This document shows positions 11,496-59,659 of a stretch of DNA of 64,000 bases, one piece after another (the stretch's first letter is position 1; each line of letters opens with the position of its first letter). Where the stretch lies: positions 3,348,001 to 3,412,000 of the forward strand of contig OZ020485.1 of assembly GCA_963971405.1 (NCBI GenBank), written 5' to 3'. Under the pieces are notes generated by a model, which was given only the letters and a program-made list of their open reading frames with translations, made no database searches and had not been told where the DNA came from. The DNA is from Psococerastis gibbosa (lineage: Eukaryota > Arthropoda > Insecta > Psocodea > Psocidae). Both the position numbers and the translations under genes were made by a program.

Positions 11496-11499
11496 TTTA

Positions 11500-29158: not shown

Positions 29159-29212
29159 TAAACGTCTTGCGTGGTTTATTTCATTTAGGTCCCGCAAGAC
29201 CACAGTCACCCA
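29159..29212 (+). pseudogene. Decayed partial copy of NaV2 exon 'S1' (A')
   Basis: AAACGTCTTGCGTGGTTTAT then AGGTCCCGCAAGACCACAGT aligns with the start of the real exon at 29476 (AGACGTTTTGCGTGGTTTCC, CGGTTCCGCAAGAACTACAT). The acceptor AG is lost (GTCGTAAACG) and the match stops where SINE B copy 5 begins at 29214. Not expected to be spliced. Confidence 0.7.
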
Positions 29213-29213
29213 T

Positions 29214-29390
29214 TACGACTTCGGTGGCAAAATGGTAGCGTGCATGTACTTGTACGAAGCTCTACATACCTTGCGGTCGGAGACGTGTCGTAACTCGACA
29301 CAAGTACCTAAGTATTAGGTGAATTAGTGAGGCGATTAAAGATGATAATCGAATACATTCATTAAATTGTTTGTACGCAAGTTAACCCAT
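29214..29390 (+). repeat. SINE-like family B, copy 5
   Basis: TACGACTTCGGTGGCAAAAT through GGTCGGAGACGTGTCGTAAC, CGAATACATTCATTAAATTG and an A-rich tail. It sits between the decayed exon copy A' and the real exon. Confidence 0.82.
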
Positions 29391-29475
29391 CTTGACAAAT
29401 AAAATAAAAAAATAATTACTTCTTCATATTTTTTACCATTCTCCTTGACTGACTGTTCTCTTCTTATCGTTGCAG

Positions 29476-29684
29476 ACGTTTTGCGTGGTTTCCAAGCGGT
29501 TCCGCAAGAACTACATCCACCGGTTCACCGCCACCCGTTCCTTTTTCATATTTTCACCATGGAACAAAATCCGGCAGACGTGCATCTTCCTGTGTACGAA
29601 CCAGTACTTCGACTACATCGTCATGGCTACCATTCTCCTCAACTGTGTCTTCCTGGCCATGACAGATCCCGTAGACGAAGCTGA
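29476..29684 (+). CDS. NaV2/DSC1-like voltage-gated cation channel, exon with domain I S1
   Basis: Internal exon of 209 bases after acceptor TTGCAG and before donor GTAAGT, phase 0 in and phase 2 out. It encodes the pre-S1 cytoplasmic segment (VVSKRFRKNYIHRFTATRSF) and transmembrane helix S1 (FDYIVMATILLNCVFLAMTD), ending DPVDEA plus GA of a Glu codon completed by the next exon. The SKRF...NxIHRF segment is diagnostic of sodium-channel-family domain I. The product would be a plasma-membrane channel of excitable cells. Invertebrate NaV2 (DSC1/BSC1) channels are reported as calcium-preferring, unlike para. The preceding N-terminal exons were not found and probably lie upstream, perhaps outside the window. 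A decayed copy of this exon lies 265 bases upstream. Confidence 0.93.
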
Positions 29685-29689
29685 GTAAG

Positions 29690-30370
29690 TCACATTTCAA
29701 CTATAATTGTAGTTTGAGTCTTCTTCCACGTTATCTAGCCATCGCCAGGTGGGCGGGTGTCTTCTTGTTATCAGCTTTTGAAACTGGTTATATAATATGC
29801 AAAGCACGACGACGACGACCCCCGCCCCATTTCTCTTATTATTTGAAAGACTTTCCATGAACCTACTCATCCTCGTAGCTTATGGTGACGCATTGAGCTT
29901 TGGCCAATGCCAACGACTCATGGATTTCCGACAATATTTTAATTGCTGCGATATGATTATATGAATAATTATTGTCCGATGGCAAACTTCCAAATTTAAA
30001 GGAGAACTAGCATTCGTCATAATTTCATTGAGAGTATCCATTGAAAAGGCTTTAATTAAGACGATTGGGTTGATTGTACCTTTACCTTTAGGCTTACAAA
30101 AATCATGCCAAATCAAAGGTTCAAAAAGAGCTTATATTGATGATTGATATTTGGATTGGGTGTGGCAACATGACACAGATTTGAATTTGAAAATCCCGAG
30201 GTACCACCTAAGCCCCTAAAAATACCTCGAAAAAAATTAATACGACCATAGGTACCTACAGTTTCTGGATGATGCACTTGTAGTACTGTGTAAACAATGC
30301 CGGTATCTCGGATGCATTGTAAACAGTGAGTGGGACGTAAGGCGGCAAATTCGTAACCGCATTGAACAAG
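29690..30370. other. Intronic sequence, no feature recognised
   Basis: Start of the 12.5 kb channel intron. No gene or repeat family recognised before the LINE fragment at about 30380. Confidence 0.5.
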
Positions 30371-30379
30371 TTCGAAATG

Positions 30380-30525
30380 TCTGCATCTTTGACTTTGATA
30401 CAAGCTATGGAGAACAGAATCAGTGCTTTTGAATTGTGGGCATACAGACGAAGGGCTCCACTCTCCAAGGTGAAAATTCCCGTGATGATCGTCAATCTTC
30501 GATAGAAGAGGCATATTAACATAAG
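30380..30525 (+). pseudogene. LINE reverse-transcriptase fragment, copy 4 (family L1)
   Basis: The + strand frame gives SLTLIQAMENRISAFELWAY then RR, matching the non-LTR retrotransposon motif WTLTKxLExRIxAFExWxYRR. After a deletion it continues RAPLSKVKIPVMIVNLR, the same ending as copies 1-3. Degenerate. Confidence 0.72.
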
Positions 30526-30807
30526 AAGAATAGCTAGTTTGGCGGAGGACTTTGTGTGCATTTTTTAACCCCTTTCAAAATTCCTCATAGCAACCTATAT
30601 GTATTGGGTAAGAACGGGTGGTGTAAATAACTCTGTATAATCAACTAACCATTTAGCCATAGCCTAATTGCCCCGTTTTTAGTTTGCACATCGTCGTGAA
30701 GCTGGTGGGAAAACCTGTCTCGAATCTACCAATCCACCTCAGTCCGTCATTAGCTATACCCAGTATACGTACCCAGTAGGCTATATCTACATACCACGGT
30801 ATTGGGA

Positions 30808-32310
30808 ATGATGTTGACATTTGTCTGTGTTTTAATTCTTGTCTGTGGTACTTTAACCATCGTATTCAGTGAATTCTGTGGCACTACTACTGGGCAACGG
30901 GAAAGAGATCCTGTGTCATGCAAGCGATACCGTGAGTGCGTCAATGGGGCTTGGAGGACTGTAGAATGTCCATTTAATTCAACTTTTGATGGTACAGTAT
31001 GCAATTCTACAGCTTCTTGTGAAATTAACAGCGATCGTAAAGAAATTAAAAGCGATGTAAAAGAAGACAAAAAATGGCAGTTGTATTCTTCAGAAAATTT
31101 AACGCCTTACAACAACCAGTGTCGCGACTTATTGAAAGTTCCAGTCAGCCAGACCAATAAATTATGCATCAACGCTAAAACTTGCAAAATTGTTGAAACC
31201 AAAATGTATGAGGAGGTTATTAATGGGAACATAACGTCTTCACCCCAGAAGCCGATATACAAATCATTCACGTCGGAAACTATAACCAAACAGGGAAGAA
31301 ATGTTACAACTCTCTGGTACTACAACTCGAATGGTACTATGAACTACACATTCTCCATATATGGCGGCCTGCCCGTTTCAAGAGAAAAAATGATTGGCTG
31401 GCTGGAACAGAATAGTCACCATTTCAAGGTAAAGCACATCTTGAAGCGTAATGCTGAGCCAGCTGAGGAAGAAGAGCCAATAAGCTATGTTGAGGAAGGG
31501 GATATATTTAATGGTGACGAATACGCAGAAGACTATGCAGAAGCATATCCAGATCCTGATCCTATTGCGGGTGGCAAGAAGGGTAAGATTATTACAAATC
31601 CGTGGCAGGTGGCTTTGATTCGAAAATATTCGCAAGCTTTGGCTTGTGGTGGCAGTGTTATTACAAAGTGGCACGTCCTTACTGCTGCACATTGCTTCCT
31701 TTATGAAACACTTGGAAAATCCATAAAAGTGAGTAAGCACGCGCGTTTAGTGGCCGCTGGTAACTCGGACTTGGCACTAATGCGTAAATACCTAATTTCA
31801 GAGCTGTATTTACATACAAGCTACAATACTAGCACTAAAAAACATGATATAGCTCTTTTAGTTATTGGGGATGAATTTGTGTTTAGCCTTAGAATTCAGC
31901 CTATTTGTTTGCCTAACTACGACGCAATTTATCCAGGTATGATGTGTACAATAACAGGTTGGGGAAAAAAGGCGGACTATCTCAAGCATACAGAGACAAT
32001 GTTGAGGGTGGCAGATGTGGAAATCAGGACACGGGCAGACTGTGAGAGCTATAATAGTAGATATGGAGTTATTGGACGTGGTATGGTTTGTGCTAATAAA
32101 GAAGGTGGCGCAGACACATGCAAGGGAGATTCTGGTGGCCCTTTGTTTTGTTATAACGAAGGAAGGTATCGACTTTTTGGTGTGACTTCTTGGGGCGTTG
32201 GCTGTGGTGATTATGACTATCCCGGAGTTTACACGAACGTATTTGAATACATATCGTGGATTGAAAATACTGTATTAGCTTCGATAGCTGATAGAAAGGT
32301 ACTTTCATAA
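30808..32310 (+). CDS. Secreted chitin-binding trypsin-like serine protease, paralogue 2 (nested in channel intron)
   Basis: Single-exon frame of 500 codons from ATG 30808 (or ATG 30811, which aligns with the paralogue's start; an upstream TTG is not needed). Signal peptide to about residue 22; CBM14 domain C24-C71 with all six cysteines; glycosylated linker. An acidic stretch follows (EEEEP and DEYAEDYAEAYPDPDP, about residues 210-252) that paralogue 1 lacks. The S1 protease starts at I253 (IAGG) with H295, D347, S442 and S1-pocket D436, so it should be catalytically competent with Arg/Lys specificity. The residue before IAGG is Pro, as in paralogue 1. The gene lies entirely in the channel intron between the S1 and S2-S4 exons on the same strand, so its transcript must escape the channel's splicing. 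At the aligned C-terminal end the sequence reads AAAGGTACTT, a possible donor; otherwise the stop at 32308 is used. Confidence 0.93.
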   Translation: MMLTFVCVLILVCGTLTIVFSEFCGTTTGQRERDPVSCKRYRECVNGAWRTVECPFNSTFDGTVCNSTASCEINSDRKEIKSDVKEDKKWQLYSSENLTPYNNQCRDLLKVPVSQTNKLCINAKTCKIVETKMYEEVINGNITSSPQKPIYKSFTSETITKQGRNVTTLWYYNSNGTMNYTFSIYGGLPVSREKMIGWLEQNSHHFKVKHILKRNAEPAEEEEPISYVEEGDIFNGDEYAEDYAEAYPDPDPIAGGKKGKIITNPWQVALIRKYSQALACGGSVITKWHVLTAAHCFLYETLGKSIKVSKHARLVAAGNSDLALMRKYLISELYLHTSYNTSTKKHDIALLVIGDEFVFSLRIQPICLPNYDAIYPGMMCTITGWGKKADYLKHTETMLRVADVEIRTRADCESYNSRYGVIGRGMVCANKEGGADTCKGDSGGPLFCYNEGRYRLFGVTSWGVGCGDYDYPGVYTNVFEYISWIENTVLASIADRKVLS

Positions 32311-32635
32311 ATTCTCGTGATTGACTGGGATATATACTGGGATGCATACTGTACGTTGTACAAAGGAAGACATGAGATGAAGTGATTGAAAGTGTACGGG
32401 AGTTACGCACCAAGCATCCGAAATTTACTAGGTCTTGTCTGACTCTTCAAATACAGCAGATTCTCGCCTTTCATCGGGGTACTCGATCCAAGTTCAGGAC
32501 AGGTGAATCGACTTGAGCTCCCCAGCAGCTGGAGGTCACTTCGATCATCGCCCAACTGACGGTTGGCACGACAGCGTGTGACTTTGTCTCGAAGACGCTT
32601 ACGACATTGCCAGTCTGGTTAGTGCTGAGCTCTAG
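32311..32635 (+). other. Duplicated 3' flank of protease paralogue 2
   Basis: Non-coding sequence similar to 18200-18515, including TAAATTCTCG, CTTCAAATACAGCAGATTCT and the GGCACGACAGCG ... CTGGTTAGTGCT segment. It probably contains the 3' UTR. Similarity is not seen beyond about 32635. Confidence 0.65.
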
Positions 32636-33490
32636 CGAAAGTCGGTTCCCCCTAAAATGATGTGTGAGAAGTCAGATGTAGTCATCATAGTTAAAAAACA
32701 AACAAAAAATGATTATTCTATTTTGGGCGGCACATCTTTTAACAGTCACAGTGATGATGGATGTTGTATTTGTCACGATTTTCGACAATTTCTAAATTAA
32801 AATCGTGAATTTCTATTATCTTCTGTTGGCTATGAATCTCCTAAATTTAGATGGAATATTTATTTACATTTTGATACATGATACGTGACCAACGCGACGG
32901 TTTAACACTAGTTAGCCACAGAAATTGAACTCTCCTTCTGAGACCTTCACCTTTTTTTAAACCATGTTAAATAATTTTTAGCCAATCGATGTTAGAAATG
33001 GACACATATCATTTTACAAAATGCTGTGGAGCATTTCTTCCATGGTACTTTTGGTCGATATTTCTTGTGATAGCCTACCTATACTATTTTCTATACCTGT
33101 AAGGGTTTCCCCCTCCAATTTAATTTTAATTTTTAATTGAGCATTACAACTGAGTGTTTTACTTTAATGTAGGCAAATAGAATATTTGAAAGGTGCGGTA
33201 TTTTTGGAAATTAGTTGAGAGACGTCATGAAAAGTGATTTGGCTAAATACCGAATGTCGACTATTCGCTCTCCCTGAAGCTGACTGAAAATCAGGACATT
33301 TATGTAGGCAGTAAGCTCTTTAACATGCTACCTCATGATTTGAAAAATGCTCCATGTTCCAGACTCTTTCGCAAAAATCTATAAATGCTCTTAAAGGAAA
33401 ACGCTTTTTATTCGGACAATGAATTTGTTAACTCTATGACACCGGCTTCATAGCCTACAATGCTACCTCATTATTTTGTATAGTGATTAT
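32636..33490. other. Intronic sequence, no feature recognised
   Basis: AT-rich, with no gene or repeat family recognised. Around 33265-33480 a few gene-like codon runs occur (for example a frame with LPHDLKNAPCSRLFRK) that may be a decayed LINE tail. Too weak to call. Confidence 0.35.
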
Positions 33491-34191
33491 TGCTTTCCAA
33501 TTTATACGTAGTATAAGGAAAGATTTGTGACGGTCAAAATTTTCGATTCCGAGATTTCAACGGATTTACACGTTTTGAGATCCCAGGAACCCAAAAAAGT
33601 GGTTTTTACGAAATGTCTGTCTGTCACTCTGTCTGTCTGTCTGTTCGTCGATTTCCGGGGAAACTACTCAGTCGATTTTGATGAAATTCTGCATGTAGGT
33701 TCACAAAAATGCGCGGGGTCACTTGCCCCTTGATAGTTTGCTTCTGGGGTAAAAATATAAAAATAACTAAATTTTAATGAAAAATGACTAAAAAATAATT
33801 TTTCTGTGAAACCTTTCCATCGATCATTTCTACCTTCAGGCATGTATTAGGTGTTAAATTGAGTAACGAAACCGGACAGGTTGCTTTCCCAGAAAAGTAT
33901 TTGGTTTTGTAGAAAAAATGTTTTTTTGAAAAAATGATAGAAAATTCACGTTGAAATGCATTGCGCGCCCTGCCAGTATTGTTGAGTGGTAATGTGTTGG
34001 TCTGACCCATCTAGAATTTACCTCACCTTTAGTGACATCAGGTGGACAACACCACACACCCCCCCCCCCCCCCCGAGATATCGAAAATTTAACCATAGGA
34101 AAATTATTTACTATGAAATTACTCATTTTCTCTATATCTAATAATTTTGATAAATTGGAAAGCATGTTCGAGTAAACTCGGACCGGTTCTT
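33491..34191 (+). mobile_element. Helentron/DINE-1-like element, copy H2
   Basis: Same ends as H1 (TGCTTTCCAATTTATACGTA ... GGACCGGTTCTT) with the GTCT microsatellite, C run (34059-34074) and 3' hairpin, but shorter (701 bases) through an internal deletion before GCGGGGTCACTTGCCCCTTG. Confidence 0.78.
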
Positions 34192-35682
34192 TTGTACTGT
34201 CATAGTCAAATATTATTTATGTATGTTTTTTTTTTTTTTTATATAAGTTGGGGTACAGGTGTTACCTGTGTGCACTTAAGCCTATTGGCCTATTGTGCCC
34301 CCTACAACAAAGTATCTACATCACTTCTACATCACTTTCTCGAGGCCTATCTCCCTCACGAGAGCCAGGATCTTGAGGGGATTCAGAAGTGGTAGGTCTT
34401 TTACATGTAACTGCAAGCTTTCCGAGCATGCTGCTCTTCTTCGTGCGATTGCATCGCATCGCATCGCAGGTCCTCCGCACCTTCATTGCAGAATCTGCAA
34501 GACTATAGTTGTCTCCCTAAGAGACTCCAGATATTTAACCCCAGGACCAAAGACGCCAAGGCCTGTTCTTGGTTTATGTATGTAACGAATTCTATGTTTT
34601 CTTCGAATACCTTGTGAAATAAATATTATCTTATCTTATATAAAAGAAATATTATCTCTCTGGAAAAACCCATGGGAAAAATAAGCCCAAAATTGGGTTT
34701 TGTCAAGTATAGACAACTACTAGTATATTTGAACCTGGTGGCAGATCTAAAACTGTACAGAAGAGCCAGTGTATGGTTTCCGAGAGATCAAAATTTAAAA
34801 TGGTATGAACGTGGAATATGAAAATAATAAAGTAATTAATAACGTTAATAAGAACTTAAGATATTATTTATTATAATTACTAGCAAATCATTAGGCTAAA
34901 AATGTTACAGGTTTTACACATTTTTACACTCCATGACTTATTGAAACGACTCCAAACCGGGAGACTCCAGGGGTTACCCCTGGCTCGGGGAAATTTTCAG
35001 AAAGATTTTTTTCGATATGATTTAAGTTTACATTAAATTAAAAAATAATGAAAATGCACAAAATAATTCTTGATTTTTTTTTTCTTCATTATTATTTGCG
35101 TATTCTGTATTCGGCCAAATAGTCAGCACTATTCGGTCAAATACCGGATATTAAAAAAGTGACCACAGTAGATAGCTCTAGAGATTAGCCAACTTGTTAA
35201 AAAATAGCAATTTTGTAAAACTGCAGCCTCAAGCAGAAAAATACGAGTGGCTAGTACGCAGTAGGCCTTGTTGGCGTTATCGCACCAATACCTCTCAGAC
35301 TATTTCAATTTTTTTGTTGCGGACTTATTTCACCCCCCAACGGTCACCACCGATAAAACGAATATCCATAAATAAAATGCGATGGTGCAATTATAATTGG
35401 CCAGCACGGTTCAGCAGGGTGCCGGTAAATCTTTTTTCAATATTCCCGCTCAGATATTGCATTCCCGATATTGAACTCACCCCCTCTCCCCATCCCCAAT
35501 ACATCTGCCCCTGATTTGGATTATAAGCTATTGCGAATAACTTATCCAGCGCAGTCCAGTCGGTTAAGAAATGTACTATGGAACTGTAAAGTCAAGTTTC
35601 GAGAAACAATGGAGCTGACATTTTTTTCTGCACTCCACCCTACCATTTCTTACCTATTTATACGTTATTGCTTTCCTATTTT
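34192..35682. other. Intronic sequence, no feature recognised
   Basis: No supportable gene. A short GCATC run is at 34447-34463. Several overlapping open frames on the + strand (34147-34585, 35194-35722) lack recognisable domains. Confidence 0.45.
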
Positions 35683-36527
35683 TGCTTTCCAATTTATGCG
35701 TAGTATAAGGAAAGCTTTGTGATGGTCGAAATTTTCGATTCCGAGATTTCAACGGATTTACACGTTTTGAGGTCCCAGGAACCAAAAAAAGTGGTTTTTA
35801 CGAAATGTCTGTCTGTCGCTCTGTCTGTATGTCTGTCTGTTCGTCGATTTCCGGGCAAACAACTCGGCCGATTTTGATGAAGTTTTGCGTATAGGTTCAA
35901 AAAATCATACCTCAAGACCATTTTTTTTTTGGGCTAACTTAATTTTTGGGGGTTTATTCTCAAAAAAAAAAAACTAAAAAAAATTATTTCTCAAAAACGG
36001 CTCCAACGATTTCTTTTAAATTCACATATATTGTAGTCGTTATTAATGTTAACAAAATGCGGGGGTCGCTTGCCCCTTGATAGTTTGCTTCTGGGGGTAA
36101 AAAAAATAAAAATAACTCAATTTTCATGAAAAATGACTAAAAAATAATTTTTCTGTGGCCCCTTTCTATCGATGATTTCTACCTTCAGGTATGTTGTTTT
36201 AGGTGTTGAATAGGGTAACAAAAACGGGCAGGTGGCATTCCCAAAAAAACGTCCACTTCCGTACAAAAAATTATTTTTTGAGAAATTATGGAAAATTCAC
36301 GCTCCAAATCATTACGTGCCATGTGTTACTACTGTTACAATGTATTGGTCTGTTCGTTCCAGAATATGCAATTAAGTTTTAAGGGGTTTTTAATTAATTG
36401 AGGTGGACCCCCCCCCCCCCTCCTCGAGGGATCTGAAATTTAACCATAGGGAAATTATTTCCTATGAAATTACATCTACTAATTTATAAATTTGAAAGTG
36501 TGTTCGAGTATACTCGGACCGCTTCTT
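35683..36527 (+). mobile_element. Helentron/DINE-1-like element, copy H3
   Basis: 845 bases from TGCTTTCCAATTTATGCGTA to GGACCGCTTCTT, with GTCT microsatellite, C run at about 36408 and a 3' hairpin (GTTCGAGTATACTCGGAC). Just upstream is a short ATTGCTTTCCTATTT that repeats the element's start. Confidence 0.78.
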
Positions 36528-36621
36528 ATTTTAGTCTGGATGGCCTTGTCGATGGCGTCTAAAAGATCCGTCAAAGCCTCCTCCCAGTCTCGGACAGACC
36601 AGAATGTGTAATAATTGATAA

Positions 36622-37005
36622 GGCGCGGTTTCCACCGACCGGCTAGGGCCAAATACAAATACGGTGACGTGGTAGCATACATTCAAGACTTAGGTGGGGT
36701 TTCCATCGACCTCGCATTGCAGAATGCAAATGACATTGACGGAAATTTTTGTTTTACTCCATGCCACAGTTAAAATTGATTAATGATCATACAGTAAAAT
36801 CACAAACAAACGAACTAAAATTAAAAAATGGCGTCATGGGATATGTTAAGTATAAACATTTTAATAGATTTCTATAAAAAGAAAAATTCTAATTTCCGTC
36901 AATGTCGTTTGCATTCTGCAATGGAAACCCCGTCTAAGTCTTGAATGTCTGGTAGCACGTCACCGTATTTGTATTTAGCCCTAGCCGGTCGGTGGAAACC
37001 GCGCC
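36622..37005. mobile_element. PIF/Harbinger-like MITE with long inverted arms
   Basis: Terminal inverted repeats of more than 100 bases, starting GGCGCGGTTTCCACCGACCG and ending CGGTCGGTGGAAACCGCGCC, flanked by TAA at 36619-36621 and 37006-37008. The centre (36780-36860, containing GGCGTCATGGGATATGTTAA) matches, inverted, the centre of the outer element at 48268-50504. It therefore preserves that element's state before the hAT insertion. Confidence 0.82.
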
Positions 37006-37560
37006 TAAGGAAAGCAGTTACGGTTTCACTCGTACTGGATCTTTTACCGTGCGTTGGGTGAAGTCCTAGTGTAGGCTATAGCCTATTGTAACCCATTATC
37101 CAGTTGCCCACTATTTGGCTGGTAGCTGGTATCCATTGGGGTTGGGTGTACCCAGGTCAGAAGGAAAAGGTTTCCTTTTATGTAGAACCTCGAACCCCAA
37201 CCTTCCGTTTGTTAGTCTAGTTCACTTACAACTGGACTATTCTTGGCAACTATGGTGTTCTGATGTAGTAATATTGTAGGTTATTTTGAACGTTGCATGT
37301 TCATCTGACCTCATGAACTTCAAAACGGACTCATTATTGCTTTGAATAATGTATCGAACCAAATACGCACGCTGGACTGTTTACAAAAAATTAAGTAATT
37401 ACATAGCTTAGTACAAATATTGCTCCGAATCTGATGTATGTTTACTCTGAAATATTAAAGACTTGTTCATAAACGACCAAAACGCGATAAGTTATTCTGT
37501 ATCCACTAAGCTTACTTACTATGGCAGTATTTAAATTGTCAATTAAATGCCACGCATATG

Positions 37561-37733
37561 AGGACATGTAGAGTATTGGTACAGACTCTGACTTTCACCC
37601 GAAAGGTTGTTGGTTCGAGTCCCATACTTGCTTCATTTTCTGTATGTGCATTGGAGGGCATCTAAAGCAGTTATAGCCTTAACTCCGCTAGGTTGGCTTA
37701 GTAATCGAACAAAAATCAATATTTATTTATTAT
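37561..37733 (+). repeat. SINE family A, copy 4 (internally deleted)
   Basis: Head AGGACATGTAGAGTATTGGT with B box TTGGTTCGAGTCC. The middle is shortened, going directly from CATCTAAAGCAG to TTATAGCCTTAACTCCGCTA, then GGTTGGCTTAGTAATCGAAC and an A/T-rich tail. Confidence 0.82.
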
Positions 37734-37739
37734 TGTTTA

Positions 37740-39300: not shown

Positions 39301-39309
39301 AGTAGAGAG

Positions 39310-40900: not shown

Positions 40901-40904
40901 CAGG

Positions 40905-42019
40905 AAGTCGGAAAACATAAAAAGAAATGGAAGCTAGGAAAAAGGCGGGAAATGAAGACCACTCCGACAAAGCACTCGACCAACACACATTGGCCCAACA
41001 ACCAAAAGCGGGAAACCTCTTCAATGTACTATCAATCACGAGGTTGGTCGTATTGTTTTACCATAAAAAACACCAAGCTTTGCTAATGTTTGAAAACATC
41101 TCTAAAACTAATCCACGGCCAGTCTTTGAAATGGTGTAACCCTGAGGACTGGTAGAGAAACTGTTGAATTTTTGACATAATCTAAGTCTGTTTACATCTA
41201 GTACATTCTAGTCAACAAGAGAACATGACTATGAACAAAACCACTATTCGCACCTAGAAACCGGTGCCCAGACCATCTACGTATAATATTTCTTTTCACA
41301 TGAACCCTCACCGCGTTCATAAATTTTAGACGCCTCCACCACTTCTATAAATGTAAAACCACCTGCTGACCGTTATCTTGAAAAGTGCCTTCCTTTTGGT
41401 CGCTTTATAATGCCATAAAGAAGGGAATCTCTCTGATCCTCTTCCTTTTATCATACTGCGTAACCCTTTTATCATACTCAGCAACCATTATGTGCATATA
41501 CCTTACACGCAGCACCTCCTTCTTTAGCCCTACAATAATTTCAATTTTTGAATATTTTCCGTTTTATTACTGTAGCTATATGGTATCTGCTGTACATTAA
41601 ACCCATCGGAGATTCAGACCAGATGACTGCCAAAGGATGTTTTTTCTTGACTACTTTTCTATTTTTGGATGTTGCGGTCAGTAAAGCACCCGGCAGCCTC
41701 TTTTTTCTCTTACTGTCGAATGTAATGTATACCCAGGGTTGGGTGAACCTAGGCTATGCAGAAAATTGTTATTTTTAAATGTATATCGCGCCAGGAACTT
41801 TGACCTTCCAGTTTATAGCACACGTATCGGTGGAATTGTCATGGCATTTTCTGGATTTTATGTTAAAAATGCCGGAAATACTTTTATGTTTTTTGTGCTT
41901 CAAAGTAGCTGAGCTTCTGAGTAATGCCTTAGGGTCCCAGAAGCGAAGACGCGAAAATCCGTAATCTGCACCTCCTCGCGTTAAAGATAGAAGTGCATTT
42001 AGTGGCAACTAGCACATAG
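40905..42019. other. Intronic sequence, no gene recognised
   Basis: Overlapping open frames at 40835-41139, 41385-41778 and 41775-42008 lack recognisable domains. It leads directly into the decayed exon copy at 42020. Confidence 0.45.
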
Positions 42020-42115
42020 CAATTTACTCGGTGGAAATGCTGGTAAAGTCCATGGCCAGCGACTGAATAAATACTCGTAACTGAGGAACTGTGAAATTGG
42101 CCGTCCGACATCGTT
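42020..42115 (+). pseudogene. Decayed upstream copy of NaV2 exon 'S2-S4' (B')
   Basis: CAATTTACTCGGTGGAAATG and the following bases match the real exon's CAATTTACACGGTGGAAATG at 33 of the first 36 positions. They read AIYSVEMLVKSMASD before a TGA. The alignment continues more loosely (CTGAGGAACTGTGAAATTGG against CTGAGGAACCCGTGGAATTG). It covers about the first half of the exon. Confidence 0.85.
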
Positions 42116-42198: not shown

Positions 42199-42419
42199 GT
42201 TCGTATTCCTGGCAATTTACACGGTGGAAATGCTGGTCAAGTCCGTGGCGAAGGGCTTCATCCTGAACAAGTACACGTACCTGAGGAACCCGTGGAATTG
42301 GCTGGATTTCGTTGTCATCACATCGGGGTACGCCACCATGGGCATGGAGGTCGGCAACCTCGCCGGGCTCCGCACATTCCGGGTGCTCCGGGCTCTTAAG
42401 ACTGTATCCATCATGCCAG
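42199..42419 (+). CDS. NaV2/DSC1-like channel, exon with domain I S2-S4
   Basis: Internal exon of 221 bases, acceptor TATTCCAG, donor GTAAGC, completing a Glu codon at its start and ending in phase 1. It encodes helix S2 ([20 protein letters not shown]), S3 ([20 protein letters not shown]) and the S4 voltage sensor ([20 protein letters not shown]) with basic residues at every third position (R, R, R, K). The S4 end KTVSIMPG differs from para's and agrees with the NaV2 class as I know it. The open frame running on past 42419 is intron read-through. Decayed part-copies of this exon lie 84 bases upstream and about 40 bases downstream. Confidence 0.96.
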
Positions 42420-42456
42420 GTAAGCTAAAAATGCGGTCTCTGGGTAGTTTTTCACC

Positions 42457-42742
42457 TCTGCCACCCGGGGAATCCGTGGAATTGACTGGATTTCGTGGTC
42501 ATCACGTTGTGGTACGCCATCATCATAAGCATAGAGGTCGACAACATCGCTGGGCTGCCTAAATGCTATTCCGAGTTGTAATGAATTCGGACCGGCCGGG
42601 TCCAGAGTTTTGATTGAGTCGACCTGAGTACTGAAAGGAGTCGGACCGAACCAAACCGAAAAAATCAGGATCGGACCGTTCATCACTACTTCACGTGCTC
42701 TGAGCTCTTAAGACTATTCACCATTCCAGATTAGCTAATCAT
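42457..42742 (+). pseudogene. Decayed downstream copy of NaV2 exon 'S2-S4' (B''), interrupted
   Basis: In the exon's frame, 42470-42562 reads NPWN, stop, [24 protein letters not shown], against [22 protein letters not shown] in the real exon; the S3 Trp is a TGA. The S4 end resumes at 42692-42742 (GTGCTCTGAGCTCTTAAGAC, then ATTCCAGATTAGCTAATCATC, aligned with the exon end and donor). About 125 bases of unrelated sequence lie between (42565-42690), with GGACCGGCC / GGATCGGACCGTTCATCACT ends suggesting an inserted MITE. Covers the second half of the exon plus the intron start. Confidence 0.82.
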
Positions 42743-42789
42743 CATTTTTTTCTTTTTCAAAAAAATTCTAAAACTAACTGAGGGGGTGG

Positions 42790-43880: not shown

Positions 43881-43881
43881 C

Positions 43882-44247: not shown

Positions 44248-44249
44248 TT

Positions 44250-45165: not shown

Positions 45166-45251
45166 GGCTAAAGAAAAAAATATTGTAAAACTGTAAAATT
45201 GGGATAAATAATAATTATAGTATTATATATTATTATTATTATTATTATATT

Positions 45252-45644
45252 ATATCGCTCATGCACGAGAAAAGTAACACATTTCAAAAAATTGCAAAAT
45301 TGAGTTATTTACGTACACAAAAATGTCGCGGAAAATATAGCGAATTTTATGAATGTAGTGTCACATATCTAGTTTGATTTGTTTCCATAAGATTGCGTTT
45401 TGTCACTGATCCGTTGTCATGTTTGACTACTTCGGGTTAGGCAATACTGACATAATTCGGAATGTGCTCCAGGTGTTGACGTGGTAATTACACTTCTCTT
45501 TCAAGTAAACTGTCACATCTCAAAAGTATTAAGTGCCTCGATAGTACTACAAGTAAAAACTAAAAAATGGTCAGAACTAACATTTGAATTATCTCAAAAG
45601 TCAATATTTAGAAATGTGTCACTTTTCTCGTGCATGAGCGATAT
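45252..45644. mobile_element. MITE with about 34-base terminal inverted repeats
   Basis: ATATCGCTCATGCACGAGAA (left) and TTCTCGTGCATGAGCGATAT (right) bound 393 bases, with GTAACACATTTC / GAAATGTGTCAC continuing inward. No transposase. The left flank is a (TAT)n-like tract, so the target duplication cannot be read. Confidence 0.75.
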
Positions 45645-45699
45645 GTCTTCTTCTGGCTCTACAGCCCTTGATATTTTTTCTATATTATAGTTTTCCCCA

Positions 45700-46085
45700 A
45701 CTTGTTCGATAGCCTATATGTAATTGAATGGAGAACCTAATGTCTTGTTAATGCATTTAAGATAGAAATCTATTAGTAGTTATTATGGTTGTATAGTATA
45801 TGGGTATGGGGCGAGCCAGTAATGGTGCAGCAGGGGTTTTTTATTAATTAAGATCGATAAAGCTGACAATAGGATAAACCTGTAGCGGCAATTCACTTCA
45901 TTAATCCACCGTCCCACCTCCCCCCCCCCCCCCCCACCTCATTCGTCATGTACCCTGCGGTCGTCAATACAGTGCACCAACATACTCTAGTTGGTACAGA
46001 TCTGTAATATAAACCGGGGGTTCGAGACTTAATAAAAATTTGAACATTTTCTGCCAATCCTGGCTTTACATATTTTAATTTTTAA
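45700..46085. other. Intronic sequence, no gene recognised
   Basis: C run at 45919-45935. No gene or repeat family recognised. Confidence 0.5.
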
Positions 46086-46275
46086 AGGATTAATTTCGTA
46101 CAAAAAGTTCAATTAATGTATTCGATTAACCTCAATAAGTAACCTAATGGTTATTTGTGTCGAGTTACGACACGTCTCCGATCGCATGGCGTGTAGAGAC
46201 TCGTACAAGTACAAGGACGCTACCACCTTGCCACCGAAGTCGCTGCCACCGAAGTCGCTGCCACCGATGTCACTG
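46086..46275 (-). repeat. SINE-like family B, copy 6, with 15-base triplication at its head
   Basis: Minus-strand copy: CGATTAACCTCAATAAGTAA, GAGTTACGACACGTCTCCGA, ACTCGTACAAGTACAAGGAC. At the head the 15-base unit GCCACCGAAGTCGCT occurs about three times (46234-46275), a local expansion of the SINE's CGACTTCGGTGGC. Confidence 0.78.
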
Positions 46276-46698
46276 GGTGCATTGCCTTAATTGGTAGGGA
46301 AACACGGCTGACGGGCATGTTGTGCATGGTGAGGGATTGCACATTATGCGTTTAGCCCTATCCGCCACGGACCTAGTGGCATATTTGGAGGGGGGGGCAA
46401 GACCAAACCTCTCCCAGCTGTCAACTTCTTGCCGCGGCCGGAGACGACGTAGACGAGACCCCTGGGCACCCCATACTTTCGCCACTGAATTGACCTCTTT
46501 CGCATATGGGGACATGCTTGCGACCAGACAATCAGATCATCCTGCCGACCAATCTTAATATTGGGATTTGAGGTCATTTCTTTGGATTTCTATGCGAAAG
46601 AGATCCATTAAAAGTTCCGCAATCAACCCATCTCTGTAATGTTCCCATTCTTTTTGCTTGATGCTTTTTCAACAAAATGTTTTTCTTGTCTTCCACAG

Positions 46699-46957
46699 GT
46701 TTGAAGACCATCATCAACGCACTTCTCCACTCTTTTAAGCAACTGGCCGAGGTCATGACGTTGACCATTTTCTGTCTGATGGTGTTCGCGCTGTTTGCTC
46801 TTCAAGTGTACATGGGGGAGTTGAGGAACAAATGTGTGGTGCGGCTGGAGAGCAACCTGTCCGACTTCGAGTGGAACAGAACTGTCTGGAACAGCTCCTA
46901 TTGGCTCTACGACGAAGAGGATGAGCCTGTTATTTGTGGCAACGTCACCGGTTCCAG
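46699..46957 (+). CDS. NaV2/DSC1-like channel, exon with domain I S4-S5 linker, S5 and extracellular loop
   Basis: Internal exon of 259 bases, acceptor TTCCACAG, donor GTAAGA, phase 1 in and phase 2 out. It encodes the S4-S5 linker ([20 protein letters not shown]), S5 ([20 protein letters not shown]) and the S5-P extracellular loop (ELRNKCVV...), with sequons NRT, NSS and NVT and two loop cysteines. The linker and S5 fit NaV2 and clearly differ from para domain I. A minus-strand frame over these bases is a shadow. A decayed copy of the exon's 3' part, its donor and the first part of the intron follows within 100 bases. Confidence 0.95.
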
Positions 46958-47035
46958 GTAAGAACTGATGTTCCTTTAGTTTACCACTGTTGGGGACCAA
47001 AAGGGAAAAATGGGCTACCTGTTCCACCTGGCGGG

Positions 47036-47185
47036 GGACGGAACGGTCTTTAACAGCTCGTACTGGTTCTGCAATAAGGAAAAAGTGAGCCAGTTATTTG
47101 TGAAAACGTCCCCAGTTCAAGTGAAGAACTGAATGTATTGGTTCCTTTAGTTTACCACTGTCGGGGACTTTGGGAACAAAGAATT
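47036..47185 (+). pseudogene. Decayed downstream copy of NaV2 exon 'S5-loop' (C')
   Basis: GGTCTTTAACAGCTCGTACT, CAGTTATTTGTGAAAACGTC and CCAGTTCAAGTGAAGAACTG parallel GTCTGGAACAGCTCCTATTG, CTGTTATTTGTGGCAACGTC and CGGTTCCAGGTAAGAACTG in the real exon and donor. The duplicated unit continues into the intron (TTCCTTTAGTTTACCACTGT occurs at both 46972 and 47140). The donor GTAAGA is now GTGAAG. Shifted frames and stops make it non-coding. Confidence 0.88.
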
Positions 47186-47206
47186 TTAATATTATTTATA
47201 CGTTTT

Positions 47207-47725
47207 TTTTAAATAAAAGGTTAATAGCATACAAATAATTTAATGCATTACATAACACCGACTTTCACACGAAAGGTTGTTAGTTCCAGTCTCACACTTG
47301 CTATACATTTTCTACCCATGCTTCGCAGGGCATGTAAAGCAGGCGGTCCCGGGTCATCCTACTTGAGTGTAAGAGAGGGCTTTATAGCCGTAACTCCGCT
47401 AGGTTGGCTTAGTAATAGAACAAAAAAAAGTCCTTATTTATTTATTTATAACATACGATAGCTTTATTGTTTCCATCAAAAGTGTTTACAATTACAATTA
47501 TCACATGCTGCAGGGCCCAGCTCGTGTGCAGCTTACAATAATTGGATAAGAAAAAAAGGACTAACCTAACATTAAGTAAGAAATTCGAAAGTATATATAC
47601 AAGTATGTATTGAATTGTTCAGTCACCTCTGTATAGGTAGGTTAGTACCCGTGTTGAGTTTCGACCCGTCTCTCGACCGCATGGCGTGTAGAGACTTGCA
47701 CACCTACAAGAACGCTGCCACCTGC
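47207..47725 (-). repeat. SINE-like family B, copy 7, split by later insertions
   Basis: The 3' end (47207-47262, TTAATAGCATACAAATAATT) and the rest (47612-47725, TTCAGTCACCTCTGTATAGG to AGACTTGCACACC) are in the same orientation and order. They are separated by SINE A copy 5 and about 150 bases of other sequence. Confidence 0.72.
47263..47455 (+). repeat. SINE family A, copy 5 (5'-truncated)
   Basis: Begins inside the tRNA-like head (GACTTTCACACGAAAGGTTG), then GGCATGTAAAGCAGGCGGTC, GAGAGGGCTTTATAGCCGTA, GGTTGGCTTAGTAATAGAAC and a (TTTA)n tail. It lies within a SINE B, so it is younger than that copy. Confidence 0.82.
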
Positions 47726-49019
47726 AACAGCCTGCTTTTGGTTATTTTTTCCATGAAAGGAACTCAGATTTTGTACCATAATGAACCTATTTCAGTGCGG
47801 CCATTTCAAGCTGAACGACCAAATGAATACGTATCGTATTCGTGAATGAAACACAATAATACATTACAATATATGTCCATTCAATCGTTCATATATTTAA
47901 GAAAGAAAGAAAAAGAGAAAACGGTTTTACTTTCCATAACTTATGAGTGAATTTTGGGCCTTTTGGCCCACTCTTTCAATTAACCCATGTAAGGGTATAT
48001 AAGTTAAAAACAAGCATGCGTGACAACATTATTGACCCAATCATTTTTATTATAATACCGGTACCAATTTTGGTATTCCTAGGCTTTTCTATTCCCGCAT
48101 TACGGATGAGTTGTTTCAATTTCCTGAAACTCAGCACAAGACATATTGATCTTGAGTTTGAAAAGGAATTCAGTTTCCCATTTTTCTCGAGACACTTCCT
48201 AACTCAGTTTGCTAATCAATTTTACATTCTTACAATCTGCAGACAGCAGTCTCTTGGGATGTGCTAAGGCGCCCATTCCACATACGTACAACGTCAATGA
48301 AAATTATGAAATTGAAGGACATTTCAATTTCTCATTGATGGGGGCCATTCCATATGTTTTTTCAAAAATTGACAATTTTCAATTGAAGCGTATGCGCCAA
48401 ATTTTTTAAATTTGTTTGCATTTGTTTCTTGAAATTGCATTTGTTTTCTTCGTCGCCTTATTATTTAATCCTTATTATAATTTTTATAATTTTTATACAG
48501 AAATGCGTTCTTTTTAAAGACATCAATTAAAATAGTGGTACTTGTCATATCCCATGCAGTGGCGGCGCTAGAAATTTTAAGGCGGGGGGCCATGGGGGGG
48601 CATGACTTCTCCCTGGGGGGACCAATGAAAGAACAAAACATTTTTCGTAGGGAGTAGCATTGGCATAAAGTCCCAAAATTTCTGGGGGGGGGGCTGTAGA
48701 ACCCCAAGACTTAGATTCGTTACTCATTCACTTCTGAGCAGTCTGCCTAGCAAATTACCGTATCTTATGACTTTATTATTATTTAATTTTTTTTAATGTG
48801 TATGAATACATTATATAACTTACACTAAACTATTCAAGTTCAGTAAAAAAAAATTAAAAAGTAAACTATTTTTCGAAATTTTAAAAATTAAAAAAACTGG
48901 TTTTTAATCTCCTGAAATTTTTGACAAGTTCTAACACGCTCAGCGACCTAATCATCTCATTCTCTGCAATGGATGGCGGCCAAATTGCTGAATCTGTTCT
49001 GAATGGTGGTATCAGGCGC

Positions 49020-49325
49020 AGAGGAAGGTAAAAAATTATAAATGGGCCCAAATTAGTGAGAGTTTGCGCATGTTATATCCTACAGAGATTGGAGAAGGGG
49101 GGGCCCGGGGGTCTCCCCCGGAGGAAAAAAATTGATAAACAGACCCAAATTAGTAGGGTTTCACGCATTTTATAGGTACTCTGGAGAACGGGGGGCTCGG
49201 GGGTTTCCCCCGGAGAAAAAAAAACTGATAAATATGGGGCCAAATTAGTGAGGTTTTGCGCATATTATTCTCTGGGGAACGGGGGGCCGGAGAAAAAATT
49301 GAGAAAATAGCCTAAATTAGTGAGG
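49020..49325. repeat. G-rich tandem repeat inside the hAT element
   Basis: About 3.5 diverged units of 75-95 bases, each with CCAAATTAGTGAG followed by TTTGCGCAT and then GGAGAACGGGGGGC and CCCCCGGAGAAAAA. Further unit-like pieces follow the SINE at 49850-49900. Confidence 0.72.
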
Positions 49326-49787
49326 TTTTAAATAAATAAATATTGACCTTTTTGTTCTATTACTAGCGGAGTTAGGGCTTTAAAGCCCTCTCTTACACTC
49401 ATGCCTCAACTAGGAAGGCCCGGGGCCGCCTGCTTTAGTAGAAGTAGTAGAATGGTTGGAAACAGTCCCAGGCCACGGTGTGAGCCCATAGGACAGTGGA
49501 CCTCCTGATTATAGTGGATTCCGAACCACTGGGGAAACACAGTGAAGTCACACGATTAGTTCGGAGGTGACCAGGACAAGTCCTACCATGTTTCCCTACC
49601 GGCACTGTGCACGCGGCCAAGTTATCTGCATCTTTGAACCTGCTCTGGTCCACTGGATTCAACTTGGTATGGCGGCCGACTGCCGCCTGCTTTACATGCC
49701 CTCCGAATGAAGCAAGTGTGCGACTCGAACCAACAACCTATTGGGCGAAAGTTGGAGTCTGTACCACTACTCTACATGTCCTGACAA
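49326..49787 (-). repeat. SINE family A, copy 6, split by a family D insertion (third level)
   Basis: Minus-strand SINE A: tail and body at 49326-49437 (TAAATAAATAAATATTGACC, AAGCCCTCTCTTACACTCAT), head at 49682-49787 (CTACATGTCC at the end). The interruption is the family D element with an exact 13-base target duplication. Confidence 0.88.
49438..49681 (-). repeat. Retroposon family D, copy 2 (innermost level)
   Basis: 244 bases flanked by the exact 13-base direct repeat GCCGCCTGCTTTA (49425-49437 and 49682-49694), which is SINE sequence and so proves retroposition-style insertion. In the direction ending with the (CTA)n-like tail it reads GTCGGCCGCCATACCAAGTT ... CCAACCATTCTACTACTTCT. No coding sequence. 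Confidence 0.88.
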
Positions 49788-50509
49788 TACGGATTTTGCA
49801 AGCTGTACAGTTGAGATTTTACCGACGAATAAACGTGCCATTTAGGGGAGCCCGAAGGTCCCCCCCCCCCGGAGAAAAAGTTTGAAGAAATAGGTCTGAA
49901 GTATTGGGGTTTTGTGGTTTTAAGCATTTTGAGCAATTAATATTTGTGAAAGTAATTAGGCAATATATTGTTGTTTGTTTCATGATGACTTTCATGTGAA
50001 ATAAGCATACCAAGAATTAATTTCCCTTTCGTTATTGTGGATACTATGCCTTTGGCCTCCATAACGTCTTTGTCACCAGAAATCCTGGGGGTGCTACGGG
50101 TGACCCTGGGGGGGGGGGGCTTGGCCTTATTTACGCAAACGGGGAGTAGGCATACTGTAATGGAAGTAAGTAACTTGTTACGGACGTTTTTGAATCACAA
50201 TAATTTTTCAATTTAACAAAATGTCAAATATTTCAAAAGTGGGGGGCCCCGGGGGGCCGGAGAAACTGCTGGGGGGCCAGGCCCCCCCCCGGGCACCCCC
50301 GTAGCGCCGCCACTGATCCCATGACGCCATTTTTTAATTTTAGTTTGTTTGTTTGTGATTTTACCAAAGAACTTCTAATATTCTAATATTTTACTCTATG
50401 ATCAATTGATAATTGATCAATTTTAACAATGGCATAGAGTAAAATTGATATGTCCTTCAATTTCATAATTTTCATTGACGATGTACGTATGTGGAATGGG
50501 CGCCTTAGT

Positions 50510-51525
50510 AACAGCATGCATCACATTATATGGTTTTGCATTCAGAGTAGAATGTTTTCAAAGTCATTTTGTAAATGTGACGATAATATATTTTTTATTT
50601 AATTTAATGATGCTCAATCTTGTTCTTGTTTATTAAACTCTGTTAGAACAAAATGCTAAGAGTGCACGCCCCGTAGGAAATAGGTACCCTAAAATCCATT
50701 GTTTTTACCTAATTAACAAAGCAAAATTTTAAAGATTTGGCTCATCAAAGGTGTAGAATCATATAATCGGGTATTTTTAATTTTTGGTACCGTAGCTTTT
50801 TCATAAAAATGATTAAGGGGTAAAATTTCGAGTATAATAGATACCTATCATGAAAAAACTGCAGAACTAAAAAATAATAATACCCTATTATATGCGATGC
50901 ATATAAAAAGTAAAGTAGCCTTCTACAACCGAAATGAACAATATTTTAATAACTTGCTTAGTTATTTGAATAAAAAATAAGAAGTACTACATTTCGGGCT
51001 GCCAATTTTGTACGGGACGCACACTTTGAACGGCAAGCTACACTATAATCAATACAATAATAAGACAGACTGTTTTTGTCGCCTGTCACGTTTGATAATA
51101 CCCTCTTCCTAAGCATCTAAATTATTAGTCTTCTTTGTGGTGAAAATAAGAGGGCACTGACTGCCCATTGCTGATCATTTAAAACTTGAATGTATAGTAG
51201 AAGGTAATCTAATATTTTTTTAGGAAAATAAACACATTATAAGTTGAGTGTTGACCTCGCACTACTGCCACTACAAGTATACTACTGTAGAAGGGGCTTC
51301 CAGGCCCACGGTTTTTCTCTGCTTCTCTTAGAAGACAGGCGCATGGGGGACCTTTGCGGTCAGGGTGGATCTTCGTACAATATTTTATTAAGAGTGGGTA
51401 AAACACATAAGTGGTCAGGTTATATATTTTTTCAATATTTCATTAAGTATGAAGAAAATCGTATTGCCCTCAATTATTCATGAAGAATAGCTTGAAATGA
51501 CCGCAGTATGCGTAAATGGACTCTC
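50510..51525. other. Intronic sequence, no gene recognised
   Basis: AT-rich, no supportable gene or repeat family. Confidence 0.5.
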
Positions 51526-51748
51526 CTATAGCATAGTGGGGTTGGTAGTTTAGGTAACATATTATAGTGGTGGTAAACAACGACTGTTGTGGGAATAGGC
51601 GGGGTGCACTGCCCATGAAATTGATGTTTCACTACTACTGTAATGGCGGTCCTTACATACAATATACGTTAGAGTAGAATGAGGCCGAACGAAAGTATGC
51701 AATATCACTGAGAACGAATATGTAGTATTTTGTCTGTGGCAAAATGCA
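51526..51748 (+). repeat. Interspersed repeat family E, copy 2
   Basis: Shares TGTTGTGGGAATAGGCG, AATGGCGGTCCTTACATACA and CAATATCACTGAGAACGAAT with 44941-45165 in the same orientation. Confidence 0.7.
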
Positions 51749-52043
51749 GGGCCTAAAACATAAAATAACAATTAGATACTGTACCTTTACAAGTAAGCAG
51801 ACCCCCACACGATTTATGAGCATCGCATCGCATCACTCGTATACCAACTTTAACGTATTTTTCTGAACAAACAAAAATAAAATCTCAGTGTTTTAGCAAA
51901 ACTTTTTATAACTAGCCTACTATAACTAGAATTAGTAAAACCCAAATAATCGTTAAATAATTAACTTTGTCAAAGAAACCCACTGATGTTATTATAAAAC
52001 CCTGAGCGCTTTTGACAAGAACTGCCTTCTACAGAGGGAAACC

Positions 52044-52279
52044 CAGTGCCGGATTAACCACGAGGCCCAAGGGACCCAGGCCTCAGAAACATTATCAAAG
52101 GAAAGCTCAATGAATATAATACATATAATAATATAAAATAATATATAATATATAAAACTAACCAATACGGTTAGGCAGCCAACTGCAGTTTTCTCTCTTT
52201 TTTTTAATGAAAAATTGTAGGTAGGGGGCCCCTACATTGGGTGGGCCTCAGGGTCCCCACAAGGGTTAATCCGCCACTG
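52044..52279. mobile_element. hAT-like MITE
   Basis: Terminal inverted repeats CAGTGCCGGATTAACC and GGTTAATCCGCCACTG (one or two mismatches), resembling the element at 25090. Inverted GGCCCAAGGGACCCAGGCCT / GGTGGGCCTCAGGGTCC lies inside. The flanking octamers do not match, so the target duplication has decayed. Confidence 0.65.
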
Positions 52280-52612
52280 AATATATTTTTATTTCTGCTT
52301 TATGATACAGCTGACCGACTACTGACCATTCACATTCCCCCAGGGCCAGGGGCAATGCCCCTGGATTGCCCAAAATGATATTTTTTTATTTAAGTTAATA
52401 ATTATGTTATATAACGAATTGTCGATTCAATGGGCAGTTGACATACTATAGTACTGTGTGGAATGTTTTAGTTTTGGTGCAGGGGTTTTTCTGGGAAACT
52501 GACAGGGGACAAAAATTTACAGAAGTATCAATATTATGGGGGAAAAATGAACACCTTTTAATTTAAGTTAGTGTATGAATAAGTCCTTTACAGGTTGGCT
52601 TCATTGATGCTC

Positions 52613-52795
52613 GAACACCTTTCGGCCTGCGATGGCATCTTGGTAGCTTGTTCGTACTTGTACGAGTCTCTACACAACACACTCCATGCAATCGCGGTGA
52701 CTTGGCGTAACTCAACACAGGTATTACCTACAGAGGCGACTGAAGTTATTCAGATACATTCATTGAATTGTTTGTATGCAAATGATCCTTAAAAA
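52613..52795 (+). repeat. SINE-like family B, copy 8
   Basis: GGCCTGCGATGGCATCTTGG, GTACTTGTACGAGTCTCTAC, AGAGGCGACTGAAG and TTGTTTGTATGCAAATGATC with an A-rich tail. Confidence 0.78.
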
Positions 52796-53039
52796 AAAAA
52801 CTCAACTTCGTATTTAGTACATCCATTGTCCGAACGGCCTAGCCCCTCAGCTTACGTTTCATCCGGCGCCAAACATCCTGCTCCAAACGTTTAAAAAAAT
52901 TTCCAAAATTGGAACTTGCAATTTTTCATAGAATGTACGAACATTTGAAACCAACTTGCACCAATTTACTTTATTATCTTTAATAAATAAAAAAATATGA
53001 ACCAGCCTGTTTTAAAGGAGATCTAGGGGTCAATGGTAT

Positions 53040-53229
53040 ACTTCCTCTTAAATTTACACACACACAACCTTACAAATGTTTACCCTCTACCACCTGCCCC
53101 TTACCATTCGACAACCTTAACAAACTTTTGACCTCTATCACCTCCCTCCGCACTCTGTCCGCTGCCTATAACATTTCCCCACAATTTAATTCCTTCATGC
53201 TCACAAAATTTGATAACTTACAAGCTTAT
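53040..53229 (+). other. Unidentified coding-like fragment cut by Helentron-like copy H4
   Basis: The + strand frame from about 53095 reads PFDNLNKLLTSITSLRTLSA then AYNISPQFNSFMLTKFDNLQ up to the H4 boundary at 53230. The amino-acid composition and C-rich third positions look coding-like and unlike the AT-rich surroundings. No domain recognised. It may be the end of a retroelement or a gene fragment. Confidence 0.3.
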
Positions 53230-54032
53230 TGCTTTCCAATTTATACGTTGTATAAGGAAAGCTTTGTGATGGTCGAAATTTCCGATTCCGAGATTTCAAC
53301 GGAATTACACGTTTTGAGGTCCCAGGAACCAAAAAAAGTGGTTTTTACGAAATGTCTGTCTGTCTCTTCATCTATTTCCGGGCAAACTACTCGGCCGATT
53401 TTGATGATGAAATTTTGCATGTAGGTTCACAAAAATCATGCCTCGAGACCAAACTCCAAAAAACGTCTAAACAAATTATTTCTCAAAAACGGCTACAACG
53501 ATTTCTTTGACATTCACATATATTGTATTCGTTATTAATGTTAATAAAATATGCGGGGGGTCGCTTGCCCCTTAATATTTTGCTTCTGGGGGTAAGAAAA
53601 AAAAATAACTAAATTTTCATGAAAAATGACTAAAAAATAATTTTTCGGCGAAACCTTTGTATCGATGATTTCTACCTTCAGGCATGTTTTAGGTGTTAAA
53701 TTGAGTAACGAAACCGGACAGGTTGCTTTGCCAAAAAACTATTTGGTTTGTGCAAAAAAAAATGTTTTTGAAAATATGAAAATATGAAAAAAAATGAAAT
53801 GCATTGCGTGTGCTGTTGCTGTGTAGTAACGTAATGTAATGTCTGACCTATCTAGAATTTACTTCACCTCCAGTGACGCCAGGTGGACAAACCAACCCCC
53901 CCCCCTCCCCCCATCCCCGAGATGTCCGAAATTTAACTATAGGAAAATTATTTACCATGAAAGTACTCATTTGAGAAATCTACTAATTTGATAAATTGGA
54001 AAGCATGTTCGACTAAACTCTGACCAGTTCTT
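53230..54032 (+). mobile_element. Helentron/DINE-1-like element, copy H4
   Basis: 803 bases from TGCTTTCCAATTTATACGTT to TGACCAGTTCTT, with a shortened GTCT tract, GTCGCTTGCCCCTTAATATT block, C run at 53896-53910 and a diverged 3' hairpin. It ends about 20 bases before the decayed exon copy D'. Confidence 0.78.
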
Positions 54033-54049
54033 CTGCATGTCCATGGATG

Positions 54050-54166
54050 GATGTCAGTTGTAGTGTTGTAGGTACAGCGAAGAGGAGTTTGTCTGTCCGT
54101 GGTCCCAATCACGGATACTCCAAATTTGACAATTTCCTGTGGTCCATATACTCACAACATCCCAAG
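54050..54166 (+). pseudogene. Decayed upstream copy of NaV2 pore exon (D')
   Basis: GTTGTAGGTACAGCGAAGAG, CCAATCACGGATACTCCAAA, TTTGACAATTTCCTGTGGTC and CTCACAACATCCCAA align with the acceptor and body of the real exon at 54208 (CCAATCACGGGTACACCAAC, TTTGACAATTTCCTGTGGTC, CTCACAACATTCCAA). It encodes PNHGYSKFDNFLWSIYSQH. The CLRVGG region carries an indel, and the selectivity residue and everything after it (LDYWENVYN) are not recognisable. It cannot supply a pore loop. Confidence 0.87.
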
Positions 54167-54207
54167 GCATTAGTGTTTGTTTATCGGTTGTTTCTGTTAT
54201 GTTGTAG

Positions 54208-54349
54208 ACACTGCGATGAGGGGTATGTCTGTCTGCGGGTGGGGGGCAACCCCAATCACGGGTACACCAACTTTGACAATTTCCTGTGGTCCATGCTCAC
54301 AACATTCCAATTGATTACTCTCGACTACTGGGAAAATGTCTACAACATG
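54208..54349 (+). CDS. NaV2/DSC1-like channel, exon with domain I pore loop
   Basis: Internal exon of 142 bases, acceptor ATGTTGTAG, donor GTAAGT, completing an Arg codon and ending in phase 0. It encodes the late S5-P loop (RHCDEGYVCLRVGGNPNHGY) and pore helix/selectivity loop (FLWSMLTTFQLITLDYWENV, then YNM). The Asp of LITLDYW is the domain I selectivity residue; NaV2 channels are known for a DEEA ring rather than DEKA. The other three ring residues lie outside this window, so the ring cannot be confirmed here. The longer open frame at 54047-54433 joins the decayed copy, the intron and this exon and is not one exon. Confidence 0.96.
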
Positions 54350-59655: not shown

Positions 59656-59659
59656 TTAT

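Follow-up and report, generated by a model that had tools for sequence, protein, structure and literature searches.

Decayed partial copies lie beside four of five consecutive exons of an insect NaV2-type channel gene in Psococerastis gibbosa

Introduction

How does a single gene come to carry, beside several of its consecutive exons, damaged pieces of those same exons? The question is raised by a 64,000-nucleotide stretch of the genome of Psococerastis gibbosa (contig OZ020485.1, positions 3,348,001 to 3,412,000; hereafter the window, in whose own numbering all coordinates are given). A preliminary description of this DNA had reported degenerate part-copies next to the S1, S2-S4, S5-loop and pore exons of a NaV2-like gene and none next to its S6 exon, and had offered among their possible origins repeated local duplication by slippage or template switching and survival from an ancient group of mutually exclusive exons (MXEs).

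Results

The exons in question belong to one gene and span 29476-57268 on the + strand:

29476-29684, + strand: NaV2 exon, N-terminal part to S1 (template); splice sites ttgcag/ACG and GCTGA/gtaagt, 81-83% matches to 60E proteins
42199-42419, + strand: NaV2 exon, S2-S4 (template); splice sites and matching phase
46699-46957, + strand: NaV2 exon, S5 and extracellular loop (template); splice sites and matching phase
54208-54349, + strand: NaV2 exon, pore (template); splice sites and matching phase
57134-57268, + strand: NaV2 exon, S6; splice sites and matching phase, local copy not found

Joined in phase, with splice sites and phase in agreement, the set from S1 to S6 encodes 322 residues that are recognised as Ion_trans by Pfam and align with sodium channel domain I of solved structures. 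In a protein collection search the best long matches were insect 60E (DSC1) proteins with 78-85% identity (Heliothis 79%, Timema 78%, Bemisia 85%, one bee 84%), non-insect identities being lower (Daphnia 67%, spiders about 61%). In a tree of 27 hand-selected NaV2, para and human SCN3A rows, the NaV2 rows split from para and human SCN3A (100/100) and the P. gibbosa sequence joined 16 insect-type NaV2 rows (89/85, not starred). The NaV2-like label is supported by protein matches and tree placement, and as judged from its sequence the gene is an insect NaV2 (DSC1/BSC1/60E type) rather than para/NaV1. Of the selectivity filter the window covers the domain I part, the D of LDYWE; the NaV2 filter motif is given as DEEA in extracts of PMC3591268.

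Self-comparison of 28001-60000 yielded the pairs 42019/42212, 42279/42463, 42383/42695, 46852/47014 and 54064/54200. Together with the S1 copy and a repeat next to it, the copies read as follows:

29082-29210, + strand: S1 copy, the weakest; end of the intron with the ~46 bases that open the S1 exon, AG of the acceptor changed to AA
29216-29406, + strand: dispersed repeat between S1 copy and S1 template; matches 46071-46242 (-), 52627-52781 (+) and 47645-47720 (-)
42019-42115, + strand: S2-S4 upstream copy of 42212-42313, an interior piece; stops at Y97 and W102
42463-42556, + strand: S2-S4 downstream copy, piece 1, of 42279-42369; stop at W104
42695-42738, + strand: S2-S4 downstream copy, piece 2, of 42383-42428, spanning the donor site; GT lost
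47014-47168, + strand: S5-loop copy of 46852-46997; 106 bases from the exon's 3' end and 40 of intron
54059-54165, + strand: pore copy of 54195-54310; 13 bases of intron followed by the opening 103 of the exon, AG of the acceptor intact, 3' end absent

Each exon was compared with the 600 bp on one side of it, the best local score being set against 500 dinucleotide shuffles and 96 distant 600-bp chunks. The copies upstream and downstream of S2-S4 scored 83 (top shuffle 26) and 100 (top shuffle 30), the copy downstream of S5 scored 66 (top shuffle 30) and that upstream of the pore exon 92 (top shuffle 33); in each of these four cases neither any of the 500 shuffles nor any of the 96 chunks did as well, so that alignment to shuffled intron does not account for them. 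The opposite sides, again 600 bp each, were unremarkable (shuffles as good in 392/500 for S1 downstream, 152/500 for S5 upstream and 497/500 for pore downstream). The absence of a copy at S6 was upheld in the 600 bp on either side, where 52/500 and 189/500 shuffles were as good (the exon being taken as 57134-57275, 7 intron bases over).

The S1 exon alone gave a marginal score of 27, equalled in 3/500 shuffles and 2/96 chunks. It was retested together with the 69 preceding intron bases against 28807-29215, using 2000 shuffles, 149 distant chunks and three scoring schemes. The scores of 70 under 2/-2/5/1 and 27 under 1/-1/3/1 were each reached by 0/2000 shuffles and 0/149 chunks, and the score of 33 under the strictest scheme, 2/-3/5/2, by 2/2000 and 0/149; the intron part by itself was weak (134, 1 and 62 of 2000 shuffles as good under the three schemes). 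The S1 copy is probably real, though the weakest of the set and convincing only with the flanking intron counted, and it starts near 29082 and not, as first described, at 29159. The order at S1 is copy, dispersed repeat, then intron end and true exon. Judged by its A-rich tail, the repeat at 29216-29406 is SINE-like. A dispersed repeat family is found in NaV2 introns at 33486-34194, 35676-36527, 53226-54035 and 59653-59970, the third of these ending 23 bp upstream of the pore copy. With the repeat in the S1 gap, this made transposon ends shared with the copies a reading to consider.

Part-copies beside four of the five exons are thus borne out. Every copy shares the orientation of its exon, at a gap of 16 to about 198 bp, and S2-S4 has two, one per side, the downstream one in two pieces ~138 bp apart. 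The exon bases covered are ~46/209 (S1), 102/221 (S2-S4 upstream), 133/221 (S2-S4 downstream), 106/259 (S5) and 103/142 (pore), or about 22-73% of the template, and all the copies but the S2-S4 upstream one take in some flanking intron. These differing extents, with the included intron, uphold the earlier view of separate local duplications instead of one segmental event. The included intron also means that the copies are not processed. That they are fragments of a single channel gene, processed or paralogous, that was inserted at this locus is exceedingly improbable: their intron flanks match the local introns, the copies sit next to their own exons at four sites spread over 25 kb, and we found nothing in favour of such an insertion; a single whole-gene or processed copy is ruled out by the intron flanks and the interleaving.

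The residues of the copies were compared with 25 selected 60E-type rows (21 from named insects and 4 metagenome proteins). Residues peculiar to the exons of this lineage reappear in the copies (V79, L82, V83, T205, Y211 and S229); among the rows that cover the position, 22/22 have I at V83, 18/20 have W at T205 and 19/20 have A at S229. Because such exon-specific residues are common to copy and exon, the copies postdate the split from the compared insects, and on this comparison they derive from these exons and are specific to the lineage. Ancient shared alternative exons are ruled out by the same residues, and the proposal of ancient MXE remnants is not supported, given V83 and the finding of no whole exon and no pair of splice sites among the copies. 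At site 117 the copy has I like other insects and the exon has M, which is ambiguous, since one change from ATG could produce I.

The copies also break residues kept by the rows that cover them, such as W104 (now a stop), S112, G113, H231 and C232, and hold four in-frame stops in a codon-level comparison. Their exonic parts carry 84 substitutions at 461 sites and 15 indel events. The substitutions comprise 28 silent, 52 replacing and 4 stop changes, the silent share of 33% comparing with a random expectation of 25% (p=0.078), and fall on codon positions 1, 2 and 3 at 25/155, 20/153 and 39/153 (16%, 13% and 25%). The third-position excess (p=0.007) is expected if the exon branch also gathers silent changes. 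Positions 1 and 2 together are changed at 45/308, a K of about 0.16 that is uncalibrated in absolute time. In the S5 copy 26/105 bases are changed in the exon part against 4/40 in the intron part (p=0.066). The pattern of changes shows no purifying selection on the copies, which drift free of constraint. The five do not differ significantly in divergence (0.09 to 0.21 changed, p=0.19), so that their ages are indistinguishable.

An assembly artefact, in the form of misjoined haplotypes or unpolished long reads, is highly improbable as the source of the copies: substitutions far outnumber indel events, and exon-lineage residues, random codon positions and ~15% change fit long decay and not read error or alleles. 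The window contains no N. It is also unlikely that the copies were once complete, lineage-specific alternative exons that were later shortened and decayed. In favour of such a past are the richness of sodium and calcium channel genes in tandem duplicated exons (extracts of PMC9741552), the GT that the S5 copy still has one base off the old donor and the AG kept by the pore copy; yet each of the five copies is missing at least one exon end, none has both splice sites together, and positions 1 and 2 have changed nearly at the level of no selection, which leaves scant room for a functional phase.

The window was scanned at gentle settings (2465/2537 segments), with a threshold score of >=25 that was set after the data were seen. 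Of 24 clusters 12 scored >=25, and five of these 12 were exon-linked, touching about 1 kb of exon; two of the seven non-exon ones were low-complexity. The chance of 5/12 is 1.6e-5 if the visible exon target is 3%, 0.0043 at 10% and 0.073 at 20%. A uniform rate would give 6.5-15.9 intron-intron pairs scoring >=25 at distances of up to 600 bp from the five exons; none was found. When each branch was given 15% change in simulation, 59% (41 bits) or 24% (60 bits) of intron pairs were detected, against 99.7% or 98% of exon pairs; at 20% change the detected share of intron pairs dropped to 18% and 2%, respectively. Easier detection beside conserved exons is thus part of the answer, insufficient at 10-15% change per branch and less clearly so at 20%. 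A crowding at exons beyond detection bias is suggestive in this model, not proven, and young unrecognised transposons or repeats in the introns could weaken the excess.

The crowding and the missing intron pairs would both follow from a process that favours duplication of exon-boundary pieces, for instance through nucleosome- or splicing-linked breaks. We nevertheless hold such a process to be improbable for these copies: the evidence comes from one gene and a post hoc threshold, intron pairs are poorly detected at 20% change and much of the intron may postdate the duplications, and the gentle scan found no such local copies in two intronless trypsin genes (~3 kb coding). The copy-free trypsin genes also mean that the crowding is not simply due to coding sequence. 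Quite unlikely, too, is a reading in which small local duplications have hot spots at the exon boundaries of this gene or of this genome; the unit offsets, about 136-193 bp with the S1-gap repeat set aside, are near nucleosome size.

The two intronless trypsin-domain genes (16742-18199 and 30754-32310) share 86% identity over 1722 aligned bases and have only 27-39% identity among the 120 matches listed; the second lies inside the NaV2 gene, in the intron that separates S1 from S2-S4. A tandem array of a 36-bp unit (6.3 copies) lies at 11272-11499, and an inverted pair, 20780-20992 / 21149-21340 (83% identity), lies near an open frame at 21392-21808 (-), which by eye we take to be OTU-like.

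Among other insects, a Timema bartmani protein (row P0002) reads VLKTIIVNTPFES ahead of the true S5 start; this segment may be a comparable S5 exon copy that has decayed but was annotated as coding, and two further Timema rows (P0131 and P0137) are without it. Internal repeats in 239 channel proteins were mostly identical or near-identical and are possibly annotation or assembly duplicates.

Discussion

The copies look like accidental small local duplications, not working spare exons. Repeated small local duplication, by break repair or template switching, explains them best, with a probability of about 0.72. At least five separate duplications, of about 100-155 bp each, direct and at most ~200 bp from their template, would have placed exon and intron pieces in the adjoining introns after the lineage split from the compared insects, through error-prone repair of breaks or through template switching onto a nearby template. 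No complete exon would ever have been copied, so each copy would have drifted neutrally since its birth, while the template exons, frozen by purifying selection, would have left each pair still recognisable. Small local pairs are also present away from exons (10485/10611, 14732/15104, 7007/7297 and 49090/49182), so that a general duplication process acts in the window. Both the molecular mechanism and the independence of the events in time are our inference, and the similar ages (p=0.19) would allow a single episode too. Also speaking against this account is the density of copies at exons, greater in the detection model than a uniform process would produce.

Of the mechanisms first suggested, separate local events stand and template switching is among the best fits; the head-to-tail unit expected of simple tandem duplication was not found. 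The spacers of 16-34 bases at the S5, S2-S4 downstream and pore copies do not resemble the tandem position (P 0.66, 0.50 and 0.43), nor does similarity continue in the S2-S4 upstream tail (P 0.34). A simple head-to-tail unit is thus not shown, although later decay or insertion could hide one.

Dead, shortened copies beside four of five consecutive exons represent the failed side of channel-exon duplication and suggest that the supply of exon duplicates may far exceed the survivors. If exon boundaries did attract duplications, a mutational bias of a new sort would have come to light, and such hot spots would be a continuing raw supply from which working alternative exons of voltage-gated channels could now and then arise. 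In practice, gene prediction, MXE finders and the design of primers can all be misled by copies of this sort.

Several known systems offer comparison. According to extracts of PMC9741552, genes for voltage-gated sodium and calcium channels show an enrichment of functional tandem exon duplications, and the MXEs of para, cacophony and the SCN genes resemble the present case in superfamily and in local direct duplication; those MXEs are complete, have their splice sites and stand under selection, whereas the P. gibbosa copies are fragments with stops and no constraint, none of the five being a complete exon with both splice sites and frame. MXEs are thought to originate from tandem duplications that possibly include flanking introns (PMC6071210, in part). 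Pseudo-exons are mentioned in parts of PMC3228551 and PMC2204066; those that appear in the former as false positives of MXE prediction are likewise frame-shifted, stop-bearing and without splice sites, but the passages concerned treat them as exons being lost and describe no serial case. No paper on serial pseudo-exons in a NaV2 gene was found by title in a literature search that had most subscription journals outside its scope. An established type of mutation, the small tandem duplication at DNA breaks (extracts of PMC8355091), is similarly short, local and direct, but mostly <100 bp and adjacent, whereas the copies here measure 97-155 bp with gaps of 16 to about 198 bp. Similar in kind are the intronic events of Exonize, whose partial, inter-boundary and intronic duplication classes are reported, in the portion of that work available, for significantly more genes than full-exon events, and which include degenerate exon copies in introns of the same gene, as found here. 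Unlike those cases, five copies here serve four of five consecutive exons, each with 22-73% of its exon. Partial exon duplication into introns is thus a known kind of event, and its serial arrangement in one gene is what is notable at this locus.
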